Origin: Trueperaceae bacterium | Lineage (GTDB): Bacteria; Deinococcota; Deinococci; Deinococcales; Trueperaceae | Length of the DNA stretch: 64,000 nt | Direction of reading: 5' to 3' | Assembly (NCBI GenBank): GCA_023954415.1 | Contig: JAMLIB010000012.1 | Coordinates: 1-64,000 of the forward strand | In this document: positions 52,830-64,000 of the stretch, one piece after another | How positions within the stretch are numbered: the stretch's first letter is position 1 | Layout: every line of letters starts with the position of its first letter | Translations under genes and position numbers: made by a program | The notes under the pieces: generated by a model | What the model saw: only the letters and a program-made list of their open reading frames with translations | What the model was told of the DNA's origin: nothing | Database searches by the model: none

Positions 52830-52845
52830 CGCAGAAGCTTAATTG

Positions 52846-52859
52846 AGTGAGCGCTCACT
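52846..52859. promoter_or_regulatory. Perfect 14-bp palindrome, TetR operator
   Basis: AGTGAGCGCTCACT is a perfect palindrome of the classical TetR/AcrR half-site type (TGAGTGAG...). It lies 5 bp from the presumed -10 hexamer of the TetR gene. Confidence 0.8.
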
Positions 52860-52938
52860 TGGATGTGGGCAACGTGAGGGGCGACGGTCGCCCAACGGGC
52901 GCTCAAGCCGTGACCCCGCGCCCGGGAGCCGGGACGAG

Positions 52939-53420
52939 ATGAGGCGAACGCGCTGGTTGTTGCAGTTGCTATTCGTCGCAAGCCTGATGTACTCCACGGC
53001 ACGATCCGCCCCCGGCGGAGCCGCTCTGTACGCCAGCAGCTGCGCAGCTTGCCATGGACCTACGGGGCAAGGGAGCGTCGGACCGGCGCCCGCGGGTGAC
53101 GCCGACCTCGCCGACCCGGAGCCCGGTAACTGGCTCATGTACAAGCGCACGTACGACCTGCAGGCTTACAACCCCCTCTCTCAGATCACTACCGACAACG
53201 TCGCGGACCTAGTCCCCGTGTGGTCGTTCTGCACGGGCGTGTCCGACGGCCACGAGGCACCCCCATCAACTACGGCACCACGCCAGCGGACCTGTTCGAC
53301 GACGGCACCCGGCTGGTCCCGTCGGCCAGTTACAGACGTTGTTGGCGCCTTTCGCACACGCCCACCGCGTCTCGGACCGTTAAGGTGAGCCGGGTGCCGT
53401 TCACGAGTCTCGGGCGTTAG
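52939..53420 (+). pseudogene. Remnant of a cytochrome c-PQQ dehydrogenase
   Basis: The frame from ATG 52939 encodes a signal peptide, a haem-c motif C-A-A-C-H (ALYASSCAACHGPTGQG) and then DPEPGNWLMYKRTYDLQAYNPLSQITTDNV with VPVWSFCTGVSDGHEAPP. This is the start of a PQQ-dependent alcohol dehydrogenase beta-propeller. After PP the frame shifts, and the continuation (INYGTTPADLFDDGTRLVPS) ends within 100 bp. Over 400 residues of the enzyme are missing, so it cannot be functional. It marks the left edge of the restriction island. Confidence 0.75.
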
Positions 53421-53442: not shown

Positions 53443-55011
53443 ATGGCAGCGACAGGCAAGGAGGCGCAGCGCGCGGAGCTGCACAGGACGATCTGGCGTA
53501 TCGCCAACGACTTGCGCGGCTCGGTGGACGGCTGGGACTTCAAGGCCTACGTGCTCGGCATGTTGTTCTACCGCTTCATCTCCGAGAACCTGGCCGCCTA
53601 CCTCAACCGCTTGGAGCGCGCCGCGGGCGAGGCCGGTTTCGAGTACGCCGAGTTGCCTGACGATCAGGCGGAGGGTGGGCGTACAGCCACCGTCGAGGAG
53701 AAGGGCTTCTACATCCTGCCTTCCGAGCTCTTCGGTAACGTACGCAGGCGCGCTGCAACGGATCCGAACCTCAACGAGACCCTCGAGCGGGTGTTCAGGA
53801 ACATCGAGGGCTCGGCCGTGGGCTACGAGAGCGAGCACGACCTGAAGGGTCTGTTCGACGACCTCGACGTGAACAGCTCCAAGCTCGGCAACACCGTCGC
53901 GAGGCGCAACGAGAAGCTCGTCAAGCTGCTCGACGCCATCGGCGACCTGCCGTTGGGTGACTTCGCGGACAACGCCATCGACCTGTTCGGCGACGCCTAC
54001 GAGTACCTGATGCAGATGTACGCCTCACAGGCCGGCAAGTCGGGCGGCGAGTACTACACGCCGCAAGAGGTCTCCGAGGTCCTGGCGAGGATCGCCGTCG
54101 TCGGCAAGGAGCGCGTCAACAAGGTCTACGACCCCGCGGCGGGCTCGGGTTCGTTGCTGCTCAAGTTCGCCAAGGTGTTGGGGCCGGAGAACGTTGGCGG
54201 GTTCTACGGTCAGGAGATCAACCTGACCACCTACAACCTCGCCAGGATCAACATGTTCCTGCACGACGTGAACTACACGAAGTTCGACATGGCCCACGGC
54301 GACACCCTCACCGACCCGCAGCATTGGGACGACGAGCCGTTCGAGGCTATCGTCTCCAACCCGCCCTACTCCATCAGGTGGGAGGGCGACAGCAACCCGC
54401 TGCTGATCAACGACGAGCGCTTCGCTCCTGCCGGCGTGCTCGCCCCGAAGTCGAAGGCCGACCTCGCCTTCACCATGCACATGCTGGCGTGGCTGGCCGT
54501 GAACGGCACTGCCGCGATCGTCGAGTTCCCTGGCGTTCTCTACCGCGGTGGCGCGGAACGGAAGATCCGCAAGTACCTCATCGACAACAACTTCATAGAT
54601 ACCGTCATCCAACTCCCGCCCGACCTGTTCTTCGGCACCACCATCGCGACCTGCATCATCGTGCTCAAGCGGTCCAAGACCGACAACGCGGTGCTGTTCA
54701 TAGATGCTTCGGCCGAGTTCACGCGCGTTGGCAACAAGAACAAGCTGCTGCCGGCGAACCAGCAGCACATTGTGGATACCTTCGTGACTCGCACGGACGT
54801 GGACCACGTCGCAAAGCTGGTGTCCAACGAGGCCATCGCTGAGAACGAGTACAACATCGCCGTGTCGTCGTACGTGGAGCCGGAGGACACGCGCGAGGAA
54901 GTGGACATCAGGGCTCTGAACGCCGAGATCGCGCGCATCGTGGCGCGTCAGGCGGAGCTGCGGGCGTCCATCGACGCGATCGTCGCCGACTTGGAGGGGG
55001 AGTCTCCATGA
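53443..55011 (+). CDS. hsdM: Type I restriction-modification methyltransferase subunit
   Basis: A 522-residue HsdM. The N-terminal helical domain (GWDFKAYVLGMLFYRFISENL) is followed by the N6-adenine methyltransferase core: SAM motif DPAAGSGSLL at residues 230-239 and catalytic NPPYS at about 306. The C-terminus (ELRASIDAIVADLEGE) is helical. It methylates adenine in the site chosen by HsdS and is needed for restriction too. GGAG precedes the ATG. The stop overlaps the next gene (ATGA). Confidence 0.95.
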   Translation: MAATGKEAQRAELHRTIWRIANDLRGSVDGWDFKAYVLGMLFYRFISENLAAYLNRLERAAGEAGFEYAELPDDQAEGGRTATVEEKGFYILPSELFGNVRRRAATDPNLNETLERVFRNIEGSAVGYESEHDLKGLFDDLDVNSSKLGNTVARRNEKLVKLLDAIGDLPLGDFADNAIDLFGDAYEYLMQMYASQAGKSGGEYYTPQEVSEVLARIAVVGKERVNKVYDPAAGSGSLLLKFAKVLGPENVGGFYGQEINLTTYNLARINMFLHDVNYTKFDMAHGDTLTDPQHWDDEPFEAIVSNPPYSIRWEGDSNPLLINDERFAPAGVLAPKSKADLAFTMHMLAWLAVNGTAAIVEFPGVLYRGGAERKIRKYLIDNNFIDTVIQLPPDLFFGTTIATCIIVLKRSKTDNAVLFIDASAEFTRVGNKNKLLPANQQHIVDTFVTRTDVDHVAKLVSNEAIAENEYNIAVSSYVEPEDTREEVDIRALNAEIARIVARQAELRASIDAIVADLEGESP

Positions 55012-55970
55012 AGGCCGGACCGACTGGCGAGGTGGTGCTGTATCAGCGTGAGGACGGCGCACCAACCGTCGAGGTTCTTTCTGACGGCGACACCGTCTGG
55101 TTGACACAGCAGCAGATCGCTGAGCTGTTCGAGACGTCTCGCACGAACATCGTCGAGCACATCCAACACGTCTACGAAGAGGGTGAACTGAGCGAAGAGG
55201 CAACCAGTCGGAAATCCCGACAGGTTCGAACAGAGGGCTCGCGCCAGGTCACTCGAGAGCTTCCCTATTACAACCTAGACCTCATCATCTCCGTCGGTTA
55301 CCGGGTCAAGAGCAAGGTCGCCACCCAGTTCCGCATCTGGGCCACCGAGCGCCTGCGCGACTACCTCGTCAAGGGCTACGCGATCAACGAGCAGCGGCTA
55401 GCGCAGCTCGGCTCCATCGTGCAGATCCTCGGTCGGTCGAGCCACGAACTCGTCGCCGGGGTCGCCGACGTGCTGGCGCGCTACGTGCCCGGCCTGACGC
55501 TCCTGCGCGACTACGACGAGGGCAGCCTTGCCGCGCAGCCGCACGCCATGCCTGGTTGGACGCTCACGCTGGCTGAGGCGCGCGCCGTCATCCGGCAGGT
55601 AGCGGCCGAGTTCCCGGACGACGCACTGTTCGGCAACGAGCCCGGGCACGGGCTCGGCACCGTGGTCGCAACGATCTACCAGGGTTTCGGCGAGCACGAC
55701 CTCTACCCGACCGTGGAAGATAAGGCCGCCAACCTCCTCTATCTTGTCGTCAAAGACCACCCGCTCTCGGACGGCAACAAGCGCAGCGCCGCCGCCCTGT
55801 TCGTGACGTTCCTCGCCCGCAACGGCCTGCTGGAGAACGCCCATGGCCAGCCACGCATCACGAACAACGCCCTCGCCGCGATAACCCTCATGGTCGCGAT
55901 GAGCGACCCGCAAGAGAAGGACCTCATGACCGCACTGCTCGTTCGGATGATCGTGGAGGGCGGAGCGTGA
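55008..55970 (+). CDS. RhuM-like protein fused to a Fic/DOC domain
   Basis: A 320-residue two-domain protein. Residues about 1-140 match the RhuM/virulence family (VLYQREDGAPTVEVLSDGDTVWLTQQQIAELFETSRTNIVEHI and ATQFRIWATERLRDYLVKGYAINEQRL). Residues about 190-310 form a Fic/DOC domain with the motif HPLSDGNKRSA at 251-261, which fits HxFx(D/E)GNxR apart from Leu for Phe. Fic proteins AMP-ylate or phosphorylate targets; DOC toxins act on EF-Tu. It is inserted between hsdM and hsdS with 4-bp overlaps on both sides, so it is made with the RM complex. No separate antitoxin gene is present. Confidence 0.88.
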   Translation: MKAGPTGEVVLYQREDGAPTVEVLSDGDTVWLTQQQIAELFETSRTNIVEHIQHVYEEGELSEEATSRKSRQVRTEGSRQVTRELPYYNLDLIISVGYRVKSKVATQFRIWATERLRDYLVKGYAINEQRLAQLGSIVQILGRSSHELVAGVADVLARYVPGLTLLRDYDEGSLAAQPHAMPGWTLTLAEARAVIRQVAAEFPDDALFGNEPGHGLGTVVATIYQGFGEHDLYPTVEDKAANLLYLVVKDHPLSDGNKRSAAALFVTFLARNGLLENAHGQPRITNNALAAITLMVAMSDPQEKDLMTALLVRMIVEGGA

Positions 55971-57166
55971 GTCGGGTCGATGAGTTGGTGGCGGAGTTGG
56001 CTCCAGAGGGAGTGAAGCAGGTACCGCTCTCGGCCGTGGCCAACTATTCAGACACCCGAATTGAAGCGGCCAAGCTGGATGAGAGGACCTTCGTTGGCGT
56101 CGACAACCTTTTGGCAGACAAGGGTGGCAAAACAGATGCTAGCTATCCCCCTAACTCTGCACGGCTGACCGCCTATGAGGCAGGCGATATCCTTCTCGGA
56201 AACATACGACCTTACCTCAAGAAAGTGTGGCTTGCGACTGAGGTCGGAGGTTGTAGCGGAGATGTCCTCGCCATCCGTATCTCTAAGATGCACCGTACGC
56301 TCATCGAGCCGAGGTATCTCTACTACGTTCTTTCGGCCGACGACTTTTTTGCCTATAGCATGCAACACGCCAAGGGCGCGAAAATGCCACGCGGAAATAA
56401 GGCGGCCATCCTAAGCTATCGGATCCCAGTCCCACCCATCGCCGTCCAGCGCGAGATCGTGCGAATACTGGACCAGTTCACTCAGCTGGAAGCGGAGCTG
56501 GAAGCGGAGCTGGAAGCGCGACGTCGACAGCTCGACTTCTATCGGAATCGCCTGTTGAGCTTCCGCGACGCGGGGGGGGTCCAGTGGAAACAAATGGGTG
56601 ACCTGGCAGAGTACAAGTACGGCCTTACGGCTAGCGCTAACGACTCCGGCGCTTTCCGGCTCCTTAGGATCACAGATATAGATGCGTGGGGCAAGCTCCG
56701 GCAGTCTGATGAGAAATTCGTTTCAGCGTCGCTCGTCTCTGATGAGTATGTCGTGAAACCGGGCGATATTCTTATGGCACGCACTGGGGCGACATTCGGT
56801 AAGACCATGCTCGTCACTTCGTCGCAGGCCGCGGTTTTCGCTTCGTACCTGATACGAATCCGCTTCAAGGAGGGCAACTTAGACCCGACATTCTACTGGC
56901 ACTTCGCTCAGAGCTCGCTCTATTGGTCTCAGGCCAACGCAATAGTCAGCAGCGGAGGGCAGCCGCAGTTCAATGCCAATGCCCTGAAGGTAGTGCGAGT
57001 CCCTCTGCCGCCTCTTGACGAGCAGTTGAAGGTCGCGTCACTCCTCGACAACTTCGACACCCTAGTCAACGACCTCAGCATCGGCCTCCCCGCCGAGCTC
57101 AACGCTCGCCGCAAGCAGTACGAGCACTATCGCGATCGGCTCCTTACCTTCGACGAGGCCGCCTGA
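55967..57166 (+). CDS. hsdS: Type I restriction-modification specificity subunit
   Basis: A 399-residue HsdS with two target-recognition domains (about residues 18-165 and 205-365). Each is followed by a helical conserved region: IPVPPIAVQREIVRILDQFTQLEAELEA...RRRQLDFYRNRLLSF and PLPPLDEQLKVASLLDNFDTLVNDL...RRKQYEHYRDRLLTF. Each TRD reads half of a bipartite DNA site, and the helices set the spacer length. The central helix contains a 12-bp tandem repeat (56486-56518). Base usage is visibly less GC-rich than in hsdM, as expected for exchangeable TRDs. GTG start overlaps the previous stop. Confidence 0.95.
   Translation: MSRVDELVAELAPEGVKQVPLSAVANYSDTRIEAAKLDERTFVGVDNLLADKGGKTDASYPPNSARLTAYEAGDILLGNIRPYLKKVWLATEVGGCSGDVLAIRISKMHRTLIEPRYLYYVLSADDFFAYSMQHAKGAKMPRGNKAAILSYRIPVPPIAVQREIVRILDQFTQLEAELEAELEARRRQLDFYRNRLLSFRDAGGVQWKQMGDLAEYKYGLTASANDSGAFRLLRITDIDAWGKLRQSDEKFVSASLVSDEYVVKPGDILMARTGATFGKTMLVTSSQAAVFASYLIRIRFKEGNLDPTFYWHFAQSSLYWSQANAIVSSGGQPQFNANALKVVRVPLPPLDEQLKVASLLDNFDTLVNDLSIGLPAELNARRKQYEHYRDRLLTFDEAA
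56486..56518 (+). repeat. 12-bp tandem repeat in the hsdS central helix
   Basis: CTGGAAGCGGAG occurs twice, followed by CTGGAAGCG, encoding LEAE-LEAE-LEA. In EcoR124I-type HsdS a four-residue (TAEL) repeat at the same place decides the length of the spacer in the DNA site, so unit gain or loss here could change specificity. Confidence 0.9.
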
Positions 57167-57996
57167 TGGCGTCCGTAGTTCCGGTCAACGTGCAGGTGCC
57201 CGCAGATGCGACTGCTCCGATGATCGCCGACTTCGTTGAGCACGCGCTTCGGGTCGCGTACGTTCACCGGCGTGACGTGCACAACCTGCGCGACACCGAT
57301 TGGGCTGCTCCCGGCGTCTACGTGCTGCTGACTGATGACGGTAGCGGGAGCGTGTACGTCGGCAAGGCCGTATGGCTCCGCGCAAGGCTCCTGCAACACC
57401 GCGCGAAACCGAAGCTGCCATGGCGTAGAGCGGTCATCCTCAAACGGGATACCTCGCATGGTTTCAACAGCGCGGAGATCGGCTACCTGGAAGGGCGTCT
57501 ATCGGCCGAGCTCGAGGCGACTCAAGACCTGACCGTCATCAAGGGTAAGGCAGACCAGGACCTAACGCTTCCTCCTCACATGCTGCTGTCTCTCGACGCA
57601 ATACTTCCAAGCATGCTGGCCGCAGTAAGGCTAGCCGGGCTCGATGTCCGTAGAGCAAGCGACGCGGATGACGGGCACCCAGCGACGACCTCAACCTCGG
57701 TGAGGACGAACACGTTCATCCCGGGAACGGTCGCGGACCTGCTCGCCAGCGGCCTCTTGCAGGCCGGCGCAGAGTTGCACTTGAATCAGGGAGGCAAGGT
57801 CGGAACGGGAAAGGTGACAACTTCAGGCGAGATCATCGTGAACGGCGTGGCGTACTCATCGCCCAGCAAGGCGTCGGCAGTAGCGTTAGGTCTCAGGGCG
57901 AGCAACGGCTGGGAGACATGGCACGTAGGGAGCCTGTCGGGGCCAAAGCTGGCAACGCTCCGGTCTCAGTTGCCACCTCCCGTTGAGGAGGCGTGA
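57166..57996 (+). CDS. GIY-YIG nuclease with C-terminal RAMA/DUF4357-like domain
   Basis: A 276-residue protein. Residues about 48-130 form a GIY-YIG domain: GVYVLL (50-55), SVYVGKA (62-68), Arg in LRARLLQH and Glu in SAEIGYLEGRLSAEL. Residues about 185-268 (GTVADLLASGLLQAGAEL, then GEIIVNGVAYSSPSKASAVALG, then NGWETWHV) match the RAMA/DUF4357 pattern seen in modification-related proteins. The ATG overlaps the hsdS stop by one base. It may be an extra nuclease that recognises modified or unmodified DNA alongside the RM complex. Confidence 0.85.
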   Translation: MASVVPVNVQVPADATAPMIADFVEHALRVAYVHRRDVHNLRDTDWAAPGVYVLLTDDGSGSVYVGKAVWLRARLLQHRAKPKLPWRRAVILKRDTSHGFNSAEIGYLEGRLSAELEATQDLTVIKGKADQDLTLPPHMLLSLDAILPSMLAAVRLAGLDVRRASDADDGHPATTSTSVRTNTFIPGTVADLLASGLLQAGAELHLNQGGKVGTGKVTTSGEIIVNGVAYSSPSKASAVALGLRASNGWETWHVGSLSGPKLATLRSQLPPPVEEA

Positions 57997-58145
57997 GGTC
58001 GGACAAGGCATTCAAGGCGTAAGAGGCAGCCCAATCACGGTGCGACAGTCGCCGTGACCCGACCGAGGATGTGTCATCGATACACTGCTCCGCTCGAGCG
58101 ATCACTTGTGCGGGCAGCAAGACCTGGTCGATGACGCGATGTGAC

Positions 58146-59846
58146 TTATGAACGGTACGCCTTGCCTGGGAAGGTCGGACCTCGCACGTATCTCACGCCT
58201 GGTCCCCTAGTACCGACCTTCACCAAGAGTCCCCGCGCCTGCAGGTCGCGCAGCATGTCTCTGGCCGTGAAAACATCGATGTCGAACAGCCTTCGCAATG
58301 TCTGGTTCGTGATGTGGTCGTACTCCCGCAGGTGTTGTATCACTTTGTCGTCCGCACCGTCAGCCATCCTCCGGTGGTACCTAACTGCTAAGCCGAGTCC
58401 AGTGAGTGCAGAAGTCGTTAGCACGTAGCGCGGGAACGGCTTGCTAGACGTACGCTTAGTAGGTTCGATGAGCGCCGACTTGTACATCCGATCGAGCGTG
58501 ACCTGCGCTTCAGCGGGTGAACGTTGAAAGAGTGGAGCCATCGCCGCTGCATCGATGCTACGAGTCGTACAAAGCGCGTCCAACACAAGCAAAGCCTCTA
58601 TGTCCGCTCCTAGTCCATCAGGAAGGCCGCCGTTCACGAAGCGTGCGAACGCATCGTTTCCTATCCCGCCCGGGACGAGGACCTCAACTGTCTCATCGGC
58701 GCTCGTGAAGATCGGAGGTTTCTTGCCGCCCTGGAGTAGGAAGCGGTAGGCACGGTCGATGCCTTGCCCCGCCCTCTCGGCGACCTGGAGTGCAGTGACT
58801 GCCTCCAGGAGCAGGCGGTTCCTTGGGGTTGATGGGTGGCTCAAGATGTTTCCCGTGGTCACACCGAACACCAAGCCGCCTGGACTCGTGATCTTCAACT
58901 GCTCTTCTGATTGTTCGACGTCGACAGATCCAGGCAGTTGGTAATCTCTATGAACGAAGGCGTTGACCACCAGTTCTCGTACAGCTTCCTTCGGGTAGTC
59001 CTGAAGCTGAAGTTGGACGCCGCCCGCAAGGTTCAAGGGACGGATTGACCTGCGAGTATCGACCGCATCGATGGCTTGCTCTACACCGGCAAGGAGCGGG
59101 CGAGCGGCCCGGAAGCGGGCGGTGGCCTCGGCACCAGGGAAGGGGCGGTACTGGTAGGAGTACCCGTACGTGGGTACGAGGTTCCTGAGATCCTCTTCCT
59201 CCCCGATCAGGAGCAGGCCCGCGCGCGTAAGCTCGCCGTTGGACCGCGTAAGGCGGAGATCACGAAGGATGGTGATGGAGTCCCGCTCCGCCAGTTCGTT
59301 ACGGCCAGCTGCGCGCAACAGGCGTCTGACCCGCGCCATCTCCTCCTCTGCGTACTTCTTGGTACCGGCGGGTTCAGCGGACCAGTCGTAGTGGCCTCGG
59401 GCCGACAGCGCCTGGCGTTGTTGTTCTGGTAGGAACGGTTGACACGAGGTACCTACGCGCCTAGTCGCCGTCCCCCGCGCGTTGGAGTAGAGCGTGGCAC
59501 CTACGGGTACGGTTACTGCTAGGAGGCGATGGCCCTTAACGACATGCTCCTGTACAGGCACGGACAACCCGGGCCTGGTCCGCTCGTAAACACCGGACAC
59601 TACGACGCGTCTCGTCAACTTGGACGAGACGCCTATCAGTGCCGCAGTGCCCGGCATCTTGTCCGCAACGCCGACTACTATCGTTCCGCCTTCGGAGTTG
59701 GCCAAGCAGACGACAGCATCCGCGATGAGATCAAGAGTGCCTTTCAGGCTCTCGCGTTCCTCCTTGAAATCAAGCGTCTCAGACTCCAAGTCGCTGGCAC
59801 GTGCGCCTTGGAGAATCGGGTTCATGAGATCCTCGATGCTTGCCAC
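58146..59846 (-). CDS. AlbA_2 (Schlafen-like) domain protein with RecG-like ATP-binding C-terminus
   Basis: A 566-residue protein. The N-terminal AlbA_2/SLFN domain (ESETLDFKEERESLKGTLDLIADAVVCLANSEGGTIVVGVAD, residues about 20-62) is followed by the HATPase_c_4-type region (YPKEAVRELVVNAFVHRDY... GQGIDRAYRFL) and a winged-helix tail (ITNQTLRRLFDIDVFTARDMLRDLQARGLL). Such proteins occur in defence islands and may cleave RNA or regulate transcription. The GTG start follows TATCCT (59854-59859, minus strand) by 7 nt. It opposes the surrounding RM genes, so it was probably inserted separately. Confidence 0.85.
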   Translation of the reverse strand: MASIEDLMNPILQGARASDLESETLDFKEERESLKGTLDLIADAVVCLANSEGGTIVVGVADKMPGTAALIGVSSKLTRRVVVSGVYERTRPGLSVPVQEHVVKGHRLLAVTVPVGATLYSNARGTATRRVGTSCQPFLPEQQRQALSARGHYDWSAEPAGTKKYAEEEMARVRRLLRAAGRNELAERDSITILRDLRLTRSNGELTRAGLLLIGEEEDLRNLVPTYGYSYQYRPFPGAEATARFRAARPLLAGVEQAIDAVDTRRSIRPLNLAGGVQLQLQDYPKEAVRELVVNAFVHRDYQLPGSVDVEQSEEQLKITSPGGLVFGVTTGNILSHPSTPRNRLLLEAVTALQVAERAGQGIDRAYRFLLQGGKKPPIFTSADETVEVLVPGGIGNDAFARFVNGGLPDGLGADIEALLVLDALCTTRSIDAAAMAPLFQRSPAEAQVTLDRMYKSALIEPTKRTSSKPFPRYVLTTSALTGLGLAVRYHRRMADGADDKVIQHLREYDHITNQTLRRLFDIDVFTARDMLRDLQARGLLVKVGTRGPGVRYVRGPTFPGKAYRS

Positions 59847-59859
59847 GAGATTGAGGATA

Positions 59860-59896
59860 GTTTGATAGGGCGTCGAGTGTCAACAGCATATCAAAC
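59860..59896. promoter_or_regulatory. Inverted repeat over the promoter of the AlbA_2 gene
   Basis: GTTTGATA (59860-59867) and TATCAAAC (59889-59896) are perfect complements with a 21-bp spacer. A further TCTCAAAC copy follows at about 59900. The first arm abuts the presumed -10 box, so a repressor, perhaps the AlbA_2 protein through its winged helix, could block transcription. Confidence 0.6.
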
Positions 59897-60000
59897 TTTC
59901 TCAAACTCCATCGCGGTGACGTCATGTGCGCTCGTTTACCTCAACAGGCTCACTGACCAATAGACCCCGAGAAGGTCGCAGACCCTACCGACACCTCGCT

Positions 60001-60188
60001 CCGGAGCCAAGCTAGTTTGTCGTTGTTGGATTACTCAGCCCGAGCGATGACAACTTCCCATGCCGCGAGCTGCGATCGGGCGCTAACCCATGCCTAACCC
60101 TCGCTAAGACCCCATCGCAATCTCCGCCGAGAGTACGGTAGTCGCCGAGTACGTACCAGACGCCACGCCGGAAGAGGCGTACCAATCA
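60001..60188 (+). repeat. Dead copy of the hsdR upstream region and 5' end
   Basis: This segment repeats 61707-61896 in the same orientation, about 1.7 kb away. By my alignment only about 10 bases differ over the last 150. It includes the hsdR start ATG, but after MPNPR the next codon is TAA instead of TAC, so it cannot be translated. Homology ends abruptly at 60188. The rest of 59847-60249 holds the AlbA_2 promoter and the 23-bp repeats. Confidence 0.9.
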
Positions 60189-60190
60189 TC

Positions 60191-60259
60191 TGCAAAACGC
60201 CTCGTGGCAAACCTGCAGAATGCGTGATGAAAACGTTGCATAATGCCTTATGGCCCCCA
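60191..60259 (+). repeat. Three 23-bp direct repeats spanning the DUF4143 ATPase start
   Basis: Units begin at exactly 60191, 60214 and 60237, each opening TGCAnAAYGC with further matches (T...TG...AA). The ATG at 60250 lies inside the third unit. CATAAT just before it can serve as a -10 box, so bound protein would block the promoter. Confidence 0.7.
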
Positions 60260-61497
60260 CCTACCGCCCAAGGCTTCTCGACCGTGCCCTGACGTCGCGT
60301 CTCGCGGCGGCCGGTGCCGTCGTGATCGAGGGAGCGAGAGGCACAGGCAAGACCGCGACCGCCATGCAACGGGCCGCCAGTTTCGCCTTCCTGGACACAG
60401 ACGTAGACCTTAGGCGGTTGGTCGACGTAGACCCCACACTGGTACTCGAGGGACAGCGTCCCCGGCTTCTGGACGAGTGGCAAGTCGCACCGAAGCTCTG
60501 GAACCACGTCCGGAGGGCCGTGGATGAGGCCCGCTCCCCTGGCCAGTTCATACTCACCGGGTCAGCGGTGCCAGTCGATGACGCCACACGTCACTCCGGG
60601 GCGGGGCGGTTCTCCCGCCTGAGGTTGCGAACGCTCACCATGTTCGAGACCGGGCACTCGCCAGGAACGGTCTCCAGCGAGGCGCTTCTGGCAGGCGAGC
60701 CGGTCGCGGCCACGCCAAGCGACCTCAACCTTCGCGACCTCGTTGCTCGCATGGTACGCGGTGGCTTCCCCGGCGCGCTCGACCTCTCACAAGACGCCGC
60801 CCGCCGCTTCAACCTCGATTACCTCGACCAGATGTCACGGCTCGACGTCGAAAGCGACGGTCGTGTCGACCACGACCCGATCAGGGTGGCGGCGCTGCTG
60901 CGGTCACTCGCACGGAACACAGCAACAGAAGCGCGCGTCGCGACGCTGTTGGCCGACCTTGCCGGAGAGGAACCCAGCGCATCGCGCAGTACTATCGAGG
61001 CTTACCTGAAGTCGCTCAGGCGTGTGTTCCTCCTAGAAGAACAGCCGGCTTGGTCTACTGCGCTGCGTTCGGCAGCGAGGTTGAGGAAGGCCCCGAAGCG
61101 ACACCTCGTCGACGTCGCACTCACAGCGGCAGCGCTCGACGCCGACGAAGCACGCCTGTTGCGAGACCCGAACTCGCTTGGGCTGATGTTCGAATCGTTC
61201 GTCTTCCAGCACCTGCTCACGTACTTCGACGGGCTTGACGCCACCGTCTTCCACTACCGCGATAGCAACGGACTCGAGGCAGACGCTATCGTCCAAGTCA
61301 GGTCCGGAGCGTGGTTGGCGATAGAGGTGAAGCTCGGCACCGGGCAGATAGACGCCGCGGCCGAGAACCTACTGAAGGTGCAAGGGCTGGTCGCTGGGAT
61401 CTCGCCCGCTGCGCTCGTTGTCGTCGTTCCCACCGGTTACGCGTACACGCGCCCCGATGGAGTGCGCGTCGTGCCGTTGTCGCTGCTCGGCCCGTGA
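60250..61497 (+). CDS. AAA_14/DUF4143 ATPase
   Basis: A 415-residue protein. N-terminal AAA_14 domain with Walker A EGARGTGKTATA (about residue 30), Walker B-like RLLDEWQVAPKLWNHVR and sensor FILTGSAVP. The C-terminal DUF4143 domain is PD-(D/E)XK-like, with GLEADAIVQVRSGAWLAIEVKLG giving E...D...EVK. Such genes are frequent mobile accessory genes of unknown function. It stands between the dead and live copies of the hsdR 5' end, with its own promoter region carrying three 23-bp repeats, and is intact, unlike the relative at 15710. Confidence 0.87.
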   Translation: MAPTYRPRLLDRALTSRLAAAGAVVIEGARGTGKTATAMQRAASFAFLDTDVDLRRLVDVDPTLVLEGQRPRLLDEWQVAPKLWNHVRRAVDEARSPGQFILTGSAVPVDDATRHSGAGRFSRLRLRTLTMFETGHSPGTVSSEALLAGEPVAATPSDLNLRDLVARMVRGGFPGALDLSQDAARRFNLDYLDQMSRLDVESDGRVDHDPIRVAALLRSLARNTATEARVATLLADLAGEEPSASRSTIEAYLKSLRRVFLLEEQPAWSTALRSAARLRKAPKRHLVDVALTAAALDADEARLLRDPNSLGLMFESFVFQHLLTYFDGLDATVFHYRDSNGLEADAIVQVRSGAWLAIEVKLGTGQIDAAAENLLKVQGLVAGISPAALVVVVPTGYAYTRPDGVRVVPLSLLGP

Positions 61498-61797
61498 GCC
61501 CGGCTGTGAACATAAGCGCCGTAAATCGGATGCCGCGCTGGTACGCTCTCACTCGTAGATACCGGTCAGGTGACGACGTTCGGGCGAAACCACAGAGAAC
61601 AGCGTCGCCTGCTCCCCCACGTATCGCCACCTCGAGTAGAAGCGGATCGCAGATGGCATCGGCACATGGGTCACAGGAACAACTCCGTTGGCGTCGCACC
61701 GTTCGCCCGGAGCCGATCACGAGTTCGTCGTTGTTGGGTTCTCCAACCCGAGCGATGACAACTCCCCATGCCTCGAGCTGCGATCGGGCGCGTACCC
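61498..61797. other. Spacer and presumed promoter region of hsdR
   Basis: No convincing gene is seen. Bases from 61707 belong to the direct repeat. Within it, one frame reads FVVVGFSNPSDDNSPCLELRSGAYP and is largely preserved in the other copy, so it might be the tail of a lost upstream gene. Confidence 0.4.
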
Positions 61798-61896
61798 ATG
61801 CCTAACCCTCGCTACGACCCCATCGCTATCTCCGCCGAGAGTACGGTGGTCGCCGAGTACGTACCAGACGTCAAGCCGGAAGCGGCGTACCAATCA
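61707..61896 (+). repeat. Live copy of the duplicated hsdR 5' region
   Basis: This is the partner of 60001-60188. It contains about 90 bp of upstream DNA and the first 33 codons of hsdR. Together the two copies bracket the DUF4143 ATPase gene as long direct repeats. Confidence 0.9.
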
Positions 61897-64000
61897 GAGG
61901 CGGCGCTGGAGCGCGAGCTGATCCGGCTTCTCGAGTCACAGGCGTACGAGCACCTGAAGCTGACGTCCGGGGAACAACTCGTGGCGAACCTCCGCTCCCA
62001 GCTCGAAGCGTTGAACGGCCTCACGTTCAGCGATGGCGAGTGGCAACGGTTCTTCACCGAGAAGATCGCTGGCAGGAACGACGGCATCGTCGAGAAGACC
62101 GTCCGGCTTCAGGAAGACCATGTGCAGCTCCTCGAGCGTGACGACGGCACGAAGAAGAACGTCACGCTGCTCGACAAGCGGAACGTCCACAACAACCGCT
62201 TGCAGGTAGTGAACCAGTACGAGGCCGCCAGGGCGGACCGGGCCAACGAACACTCGACCGGCGCCCGCTACGCCAACCGCTACGACGTCACCATCCTGGT
62301 CAACGGCCTACCGATGGTGCACGTAGAGCTCAAGCGGCGCGGCGTGGACATCCGTGAGGCGTTCAACCAGATCGACCGGTACCAGCGCGACAGCTTCTGG
62401 GCCGGTTCTGGGCTGTTCGAGTACGTACAGCTGTTCGTCATCAGCAACGGCACGCTGACGAAGTACTACTCGAACACCACGCGCAGCCAACACCTCAAGG
62501 AAGGCCAGGGGCGGGGTAAGGGCCGTAAGACCTCCAACAGCTTCGAGTTCACGTCGTGGTGGGCGGACGCTCAGAACAAACCGATACAAGACCTCTCGTC
62601 GTTCGCGAAGACCTTCTTCGCCAAGCACACGCTGCTCAACATCCTCACCCGCTACTGCGTGCTCACCGCCGACCGGCTGCTGTTGGTCATGCGGCCGTAC
62701 CAGATCGTGGCGACCGAGCGGATCTTGCGCAAGATCGCGATCGGGACCAACTACCGGCGGCTCGGCACCGCCGACGCGGGCGGTTACGTGTGGCACACCA
62801 CCGGCTCGGGTAAGACCCTCACCTCCTTCAAGACGGCGCAGCTCGCCACCCAGGTGACGAGCGTCGACAAGGTGTTGTTCGTGGTCGACCGCAAAGACCT
62901 CGACTACCAGACGATGCGGGAGTACGACCGGTTCCAGAAGGGCGCGGCGAACTCCAACACCTCGACAGCCGTGCTCAAGGCGCAACTCGAGGACCCTGGC
63001 GCGCGGATCATCATCACCACGATCCAGAAGCTCGCCACTTTCATCAAGGCGAACAAGGGACACCCCGTCTTCGCCGGGCACCACGTCATCATCTTCGACG
63101 AGTGCCACCGCTCGCAGTTCGGCGACATGCACACCGCCATCACCAAGGCGTTCAAGCGCTACCACCTGTTCGGCTTCACGGGCACGCCCATCTTCACCGC
63201 CAACGCCCCGACTGGCGGCAACCCGCGGCTGAAGACCACGCAGCAGGCCTTCGGCGAGCGGCTGCACACCTACACGATCGTCGACGCCATCACCGACAAG
63301 AACGTGCTGCCGTTCCGGATCGACTACGTCAACACCGTGAAGAGCGGTGACTTCATCGACAAGGACGTGGCTGCCATCGACAGGGAGAGGGCGCTGCTCG
63401 CTCCCGAACGGATCGCCCAAGTGGTGCGCTACACACTGGAGCACTTCGATCAGAAGACCAAGCGCTCCTCGACCTACGACCATTGGGTCGTGGCGAACGT
63501 CGGCCAGGCAGTGCGTGGCCGCCGGCGGGCCGAAGAGGTCCGTGAGCGCAAGCGTGTGCGCGGCTTCAACGCCATCTTCGCGACGGCGTCGATCGAGGCC
63601 GCCCGCCTTTACTACGACCAGTTCCGGGTCCAGCAAGCGCAGCTTCCCCTGGAGCAGCGACTGAAGGTCGGGCTCATCTACTCGTTCGGGGCCAACGAAG
63701 CCAATGATGACGGCTTCCTCGATGTGGAGTCGTTCGACGCCGACCAGCTCGGGGCCGACGCGCGCTCGTTCCTTGACGGGGCGATCCGGGACTACAACGA
63801 GGCGTTCAGTACCAGCTACGACACCAGCGACGATCGCTTCCAGAACTACTACAAGGACCTCTCGCAGCGGCTGAGGAACCGCGAGCTCGACCTGGTCGTC
63901 GTGGTCAACATGTTCCTCACAGGCTTCGACGCCACCACGCTGAACACGCTCTTCGTCGACAAGAACCTGCGTGCCCACGGTCTCATTCAGGCGTACTCGC
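61798..64000 (+). CDS. hsdR: Type I restriction endonuclease subunit, 3' end outside window
   Basis: 734 codons are visible from ATG 61798 and the frame is open at the window end. The PD-(D/E)XK nuclease motif is seen as YDVTILVNG...VHVELKRRG (E177, K179). The helicase core follows: Walker A HTTGSGKTLTS (about 333-343), DECHRSQFG (about 434) and GFTGTPIF. Later motifs include VVVVNMFLTGFDATTLNTLFVDK, near the edge. HsdR translocates DNA and cuts it when the HsdS site is unmethylated. Full HsdR proteins are about 1000 residues, so roughly a quarter is missing. It is separated from hsdMS by 4.6 kb of inserted genes. Confidence 0.95.
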   Translation, partial: MPNPRYDPIAISAESTVVAEYVPDVKPEAAYQSEAALERELIRLLESQAYEHLKLTSGEQLVANLRSQLEALNGLTFSDGEWQRFFTEKIAGRNDGIVEKTVRLQEDHVQLLERDDGTKKNVTLLDKRNVHNNRLQVVNQYEAARADRANEHSTGARYANRYDVTILVNGLPMVHVELKRRGVDIREAFNQIDRYQRDSFWAGSGLFEYVQLFVISNGTLTKYYSNTTRSQHLKEGQGRGKGRKTSNSFEFTSWWADAQNKPIQDLSSFAKTFFAKHTLLNILTRYCVLTADRLLLVMRPYQIVATERILRKIAIGTNYRRLGTADAGGYVWHTTGSGKTLTSFKTAQLATQVTSVDKVLFVVDRKDLDYQTMREYDRFQKGAANSNTSTAVLKAQLEDPGARIIITTIQKLATFIKANKGHPVFAGHHVIIFDECHRSQFGDMHTAITKAFKRYHLFGFTGTPIFTANAPTGGNPRLKTTQQAFGERLHTYTIVDAITDKNVLPFRIDYVNTVKSGDFIDKDVAAIDRERALLAPERIAQVVRYTLEHFDQKTKRSSTYDHWVVANVGQAVRGRRRAEEVRERKRVRGFNAIFATASIEAARLYYDQFRVQQAQLPLEQRLKVGLIYSFGANEANDDGFLDVESFDADQLGADARSFLDGAIRDYNEAFSTSYDTSDDRFQNYYKDLSQRLRNRELDLVVVVNMFLTGFDATTLNTLFVDKNLRAHGLIQAYS

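Follow-up and report, generated by a model that had tools for sequence, protein, structure and literature searches.

Signs of a Single-Gene Mobile Cassette, Formed by a 23-bp Repeat Array and an AAA_14-DUF4143 ATPase Gene, Between Two Copies of an hsdR 5' End

Closest Described Systems

The ATPase gene family considered here is listed under the name PDC-S01 as a single-gene defense system, the fourth most common in prokaryotes (~39,000 copies), and is presented without an experimental test (PMC12988326). The protein of the present locus has the domains described there, namely an ATPase fused to a PD-(D/E)XK nuclease, and the accessible part of that source gives a description from which the 23-bp repeat array, the cassette boundaries, and the long flanking duplications reported below are absent (PMC12988326). 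A search of the open literature, with preprints and most subscription papers outside its range, found nothing that connects DUF4143 proteins with repeats or mobility.

Transposons with target-site duplication resemble this system in being single-gene units that are found at unrelated sites and are flanked by direct duplications of target DNA. Here, however, there is no transposase domain, terminal inverted repeats are missing, and the tail is variable, while the duplication measures ~96-190 bp instead of the few bp of transposons. No transposase gene (DDE, HUH, serine or tyrosine recombinase) was found in the unit, for which Pfam gives AAA_14 and DUF4143 only, and its ends hold no inverted pair.

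Tn7 carries repeats of ~22 bp at the ends of the element. The activities of its AAA+ protein TnsC and of its PD-(D/E)XK protein TnsA are both present in the locus, but fused in one protein; in addition, a TnsB-like transposase is missing here, as is a right-end array in most copies. Iteron-type replication initiators and Orc1/Cdc6 are similar in combining an AAA+ domain and a winged helix beside a tandem array whose unit spans roughly two helical turns; Foldseek also matches the protein to Cdc6/Orc1 on DNA. In contrast to them, the ATPase described here is chromosomal, has a nuclease domain, and gives no sign of replication. Lastly, R-linked genes, which are embedded between hsdS and hsdR, have their counterpart in the further embedded genes of the locus (PDC-S23, PDC-S14, and AlbA_2), although the ATPase family, unlike R-linked genes, is not usually found in restriction-modification loci.

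The Restriction Locus and the Duplicated hsdR 5' End

The window, that is, the whole stretch of DNA that was analyzed, comprises 64,000 nucleotides of a Trueperaceae bacterium (contig JAMLIB010000012.1, positions 1 to 64,000). It holds hsdM, hsdS, and hsdR with their conserved domains, which together define a type I restriction-modification locus, and three further accessory genes inside the hsd operon (55008-59846), of the RhuM-Fic, RAMA-domain, and Schlafen/AlbA_2 types. The features of the locus are as follows.

53443-57166, forward strand: host locus, with hsdM (53443-55011), the RhuM-Fic gene (55008-55970, PDC-S23), and hsdS (55967-57166)
57166-57996, forward strand: RAMA-domain gene (PDC-S14), between hsdS and hsdR
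58146-59846, reverse strand: Schlafen/AlbA_2 gene, between hsdS and hsdR
60014-60188, forward strand: left copy, dead because of two TAA; it spans the leader and 33 initial codons of hsdR, with similarity back to ~59996
60187-60255, forward strand: array of three degenerate 23-bp repeats (CATCTGCAAAACGCCTCGTGGCA / AACCTGCAGAATGCGTGATGAAA / ACGTTGCATAATGCCTTATGGCC), the left end of the putative cassette, overlapping the ATPase start
60250-61497, forward strand: AAA_14-DUF4143 gene, 415 aa, with AAA+ ATPase, predicted winged helix, and PD-(D/E)XK nuclease (PADLOC PDC-S01)
61498-61721, forward strand: tail from the ATPase stop to the right copy, possibly carried-over donor DNA by analogy with locus L294
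61722-61896, forward strand: right copy, joined without a break to hsdR and supplying its leader and start; the leader folds into a strong RNA hairpin (z -3.9)
61768-64000, and on to 64890 in the contig, forward strand: hsdR, 1040 aa, with an ATG at 61768 or 61798

According to a preliminary description of this DNA, about 190 bp covering the hsdR leader and first codons occur twice, 1.7 kb apart, and the left copy is dead, reading MPNPR and then a stop. Both claims are borne out. The repeat search in the window returned 60014-60188 and 61722-61896, 175 nt without gaps at 91% identity and a spacing of 1708, and gapped BLAST lengthens the match to 59996/61703 (~190 bp, 88-89%, E ~1e-65). Leader and codons 1-33 of hsdR make up the repeat, the AAA_14-DUF4143 gene lies between its copies, and a genome-wide check found just these two. 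Ten of the 16 mismatches fall within the 76 positions of the leader and six within the 99 of the coding part. The left copy has the expected TAA at MPNPR* and a second one at MPRAAIGR*.

In genome G022, which belongs to a sister species within the genus (same contig as locus L003), both copies flank the ATPase in the identical order. Its left copy has one 4-nt deletion relative to the window, a loss that is expected because the left copy is dead DNA. The island from 53761 to 64000 (a block of 53.76-64.9 kb in the contig), whose left edge lies inside hsdM, is ~99.9% identical between the two genomes, whereas its flanks are ~91% identical, the right one at 91%. As the island differs at only a handful of sites against this 91% flank, the whole locus was exchanged recently between two species. 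Directly 5' of hsdM there is a truncated cytochrome c / PQQ-dehydrogenase-like reading frame (52843-53388), into which the island may have inserted.

The nearest relatives of hsdR, at 74%, are found on Arthrobacter plasmids in compact hsdMSR loci devoid of leader and ATPase. No hsdR relative carrying this leader was found, and none of 111 genomes of the class holds a close hsdR relative; a relative with both copies and without the ATPase was likewise not encountered in these 111 genomes. A search for copies of hsdR 5' ends in other restriction-modification loci gave short matches only, which are most likely hsdM/S ends and none of which is like the copy in the window. The hairpin of the hsdR leader (61722-61767) was also considered as a mobile or recombination site and set aside, with a single 38-nt match, in genome G021, beside an unrelated gene. 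Elsewhere in the genus, a different species has a 38-nt hairpin resembling it (L084, 1501-1538) that adjoins a gene for an MFS transporter.

The ATPase-Nuclease and the 23-bp Repeat Array

Pfam AAA_14 and DUF4143 both score above their cut-offs in the protein, which also matches PADLOC PDC-S01 (PDLC04790, E 3.7e-72). Among 42 sequences, the Walker A and B residues (G28, G33, K34, T35; D75, E76) and the nuclease residues E343, D345, E359, and K361 are invariant. The AF2 model (pLDDT 91) shows an AAA+ region and a PD-(D/E)XK region, and its helices and strands at ~210-290 are read as a putative winged helix. Foldseek matches, all with a low TM-score, include an archaeal Walker ATPase (2qen), Cdc6/Orc1 on DNA, and Card1/Cdn1; a sequence search against solved structures gave no match.

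The left copy ends at 60188, where it meets the start of the array (~60187-60190), a feature absent from the preliminary description. The array of the window has a lag-23 score of 11.4 (next best lag, 8), which was reached by none of 10000 shuffles; taken alone it is weak, and the signal becomes unmistakable only across the family. Within the 200 nt that precede the gene in 74 relatives, identity reaches 0.402 for lag 23, compared with 0.268 (sd 0.008) for the other lags, and lag 23 ranks first in 67 of these loci. The signal is absent from the gene itself, from the DNA downstream of it, and from DNA 1 kb upstream. The consensus unit is ATTGCTACAAATTACCGAATAAA, and the nearest relatives (L004 and L010) have upstream units of the TTGCA..TGC(G)G type seen in the window. 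The stretch that follows the left copy (CTCGTGGCAAACCT) had been considered as further hsdR sequence after a deletion, but units of the 23-bp array explain it better.

Twenty more distant homologues show period 23 in six cases and 22 or 24 in several. The period is 22 or 24 bp in the arrays upstream of the distant DUF4143 ATPases at L342, L331, L332, L336, and L341. Array units were also observed directly 3' of the stop codon in L037 (11257-11310) and L222, an arrangement like that of two cassettes joined head to tail.

Edges of the Shared Unit and Genomic Contexts

The extent of shared DNA was determined in 92 pairs with at least 78% DNA identity, drawn from 39 loci. In 80 of them the common block is limited to the segment from the array start to the stop codon, so the gene appears to travel as a single-gene cassette. 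No tblastx match was found in any 2.5-kb flank for 15 of 20 testable close pairs; these include all 11 pairs of the Prevotella group (~90-93% identity), whose flanks hold no related DNA or protein. A left neighbor is shared in five of the 20 pairs, and a right neighbor in a few others. Thus, as in a mobile cassette, one unit with sharp edges is found in unrelated contexts. Counting against this reading, no clean empty site was obtained among the searched relatives: a joined-flank search in 400 Oscillospiraceae returned none, and genes for phosphatidylserine decarboxylase without a cassette (genomes G137/G138) are followed by different downstream DNA.

The sample of relatives contains one genome per species. 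With the proteins of this locus as tblastn queries, an hsd-like neighbor, weak at best, was detected in two of 78 other relatives (L033 and L058); type I restriction loci are not the usual home of the family. The preliminary description had the ATPase entering by insertion, with the leader and start of hsdR left intact, and had viewed this as a possible route into restriction-modification loci; insertion and an intact hsdR start agree with the present data, while a route specific to such loci does not. Three queries found no relatives of the ATPase in viral contigs, and few are on plasmids.

Long Duplications at Other Loci

The preliminary description also led to the expectation of long direct repeats around other DUF4143 ATPases, and these do occur. 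Flanking direct repeats with a score of at least 100 were found at 6 of 93 loci and at none of 170 control genes (Fisher p 0.002), and those with a score of at least 40 at 12 of 93 against 4 of 170 (Fisher p 0.002), the controls being other genes of the same contigs, unmatched for horizontal acquisition or intergenic position. Those of the 12 that are dispersed or palindromic were left aside; the duplications of the window, L009, and L294 are regarded as firm because the repeat occurs just twice in each genome. The repeats at L046, L299, and L050 look dispersed, palindromic, or of low complexity, and that at L210 is a palindromic terminator in opposite orientation, which was not counted. A further flanking repeat lies at L298.

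In L009, a 99-bp stretch made up of the last 70 bp of a phosphatidylserine decarboxylase gene and 29 further bp recurs after the ATPase, and 3 bp separate its left copy from the array. In L294, the duplication has 96 bp at 99% identity, and ~100 bp separate it from the array on the left side. The same genome has a second cassette, L307, with which L294 shares homology for ~145 bp beyond the stop codon, up to the beginning of the right copy. The gene whose C-terminal end makes up this tail of L294 lies intact beside L307. As the tail matches the neighbor of L307 and ends at the duplication, the insert appears to have brought a piece of donor DNA, now lying between two copies of target DNA.

Two properties of the duplications count against the cassette reading. 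They are missing at ~87% of the loci, and their distance from the cassette varies between 1 and 104 bp on the left and between 33 and 224 bp on the right; in the window, L009, and L294 they do not abut the cassette on both sides.

Proposed Mechanism

The ATPase gene and its 23-bp array are probably a single-gene mobile cassette that was inserted in the 5' part of hsdR with a target duplication of ~190 bp. The unit of ~1.5 kb would consist of three 23-base repeats and one gene for an ATPase-nuclease, and there are signs, in bacteria and archaea alike, that the gene family is a mobile unit. According to this model, the cassette would enter the 5' part of hsdR within the type I restriction locus, and insertion would duplicate ~190 bp of hsdR in the manner of a long target-site duplication. 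The right copy stayed joined to hsdR, which in this way kept its leader and start, while the left copy, severed after codon 33, would decay.

The duplication is presumably a product of the insertion itself. The protein is predicted to bind the array through its putative winged helix, for which the array would serve as operator, as a signal for end recognition, or as both, and the nuclease domain could make widely spaced cuts. By analogy with L294, the 224-bp tail after the ATPase may be donor DNA. The gene would thereby be self-mobile, although host repair could leave such scars too. A further step, which can be put forward only tentatively and is somewhat doubtful, is that these genes represent a new type of mobile element, in which an AAA+ - winged helix - PD-(D/E)XK protein recognizes its own array of 21-24-bp units and inserts array and gene without a known transposase, and in which the resulting target duplications of ~100-190 bp leave the target gene functional.

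Alternative Explanations

The gene could instead be passive cargo. It would then be a true defense or regulatory gene whose array is an operator and which owes its spread to ordinary horizontal transfer and to repair by the host, and the duplications would be template-switch scars of double-strand-break repair and not made by the protein. The lack of a transposase, the imprecise distances to the duplications, and their absence from most copies all agree with this, and the proposal of the family as a defense candidate was itself based on its embedding in defense loci, according to PMC12988326. Such an origin is nevertheless rather unlikely, since in 80 of 92 pairs the edges of the cassette coincide with array and stop codon, the array lies at one end, and the nuclease residues are invariant.

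In the case of a tandem duplication or an exchange of hsdR alleles, the left copy would be what remains of an older hsdR, and ATPase and hsdR would have arrived together by recombination between related restriction loci. The 9% divergence of the copies would fit two alleles, and the whole island was recently swapped between species. Against it stand the Arthrobacter plasmid genes, which as the closest hsdR relatives lack this leader, the end of the left copy at the array with no further hsdR behind it, and the comparable arrangement that L009 and L294 show at unrelated genes; this course of events is unlikely. An artefact of assembly or binning, which the preliminary description had named as a possible refutation, might be suspected in a draft genome of 30 contigs. 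The duplication is not an assembly error, however, because the independent assembly of the sister species has a matching layout; the copies moreover differ at 16 sites, and the chance of an artefact is very slight.

Implications and Further Observations

If PDC-S01 is a mobile cassette, counts of defense systems will change, and conclusions drawn from "guilt by embedding" will need a control for mobile single genes. Should the reading as a new element hold, one of the commonest annotated "defense systems" would for the most part be a selfish single-gene element, and insertion would account for its embedding in defense loci. The long duplications point to a chemistry of insertion in which the target is spared.

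An archaeal genome of 1.5 Mb (G134) has seven diverged copies of the ATPase (L223-L229), and in Gulosibacter (L074, 7874-12606) two related ATPase genes follow each other, the second of which is broken.
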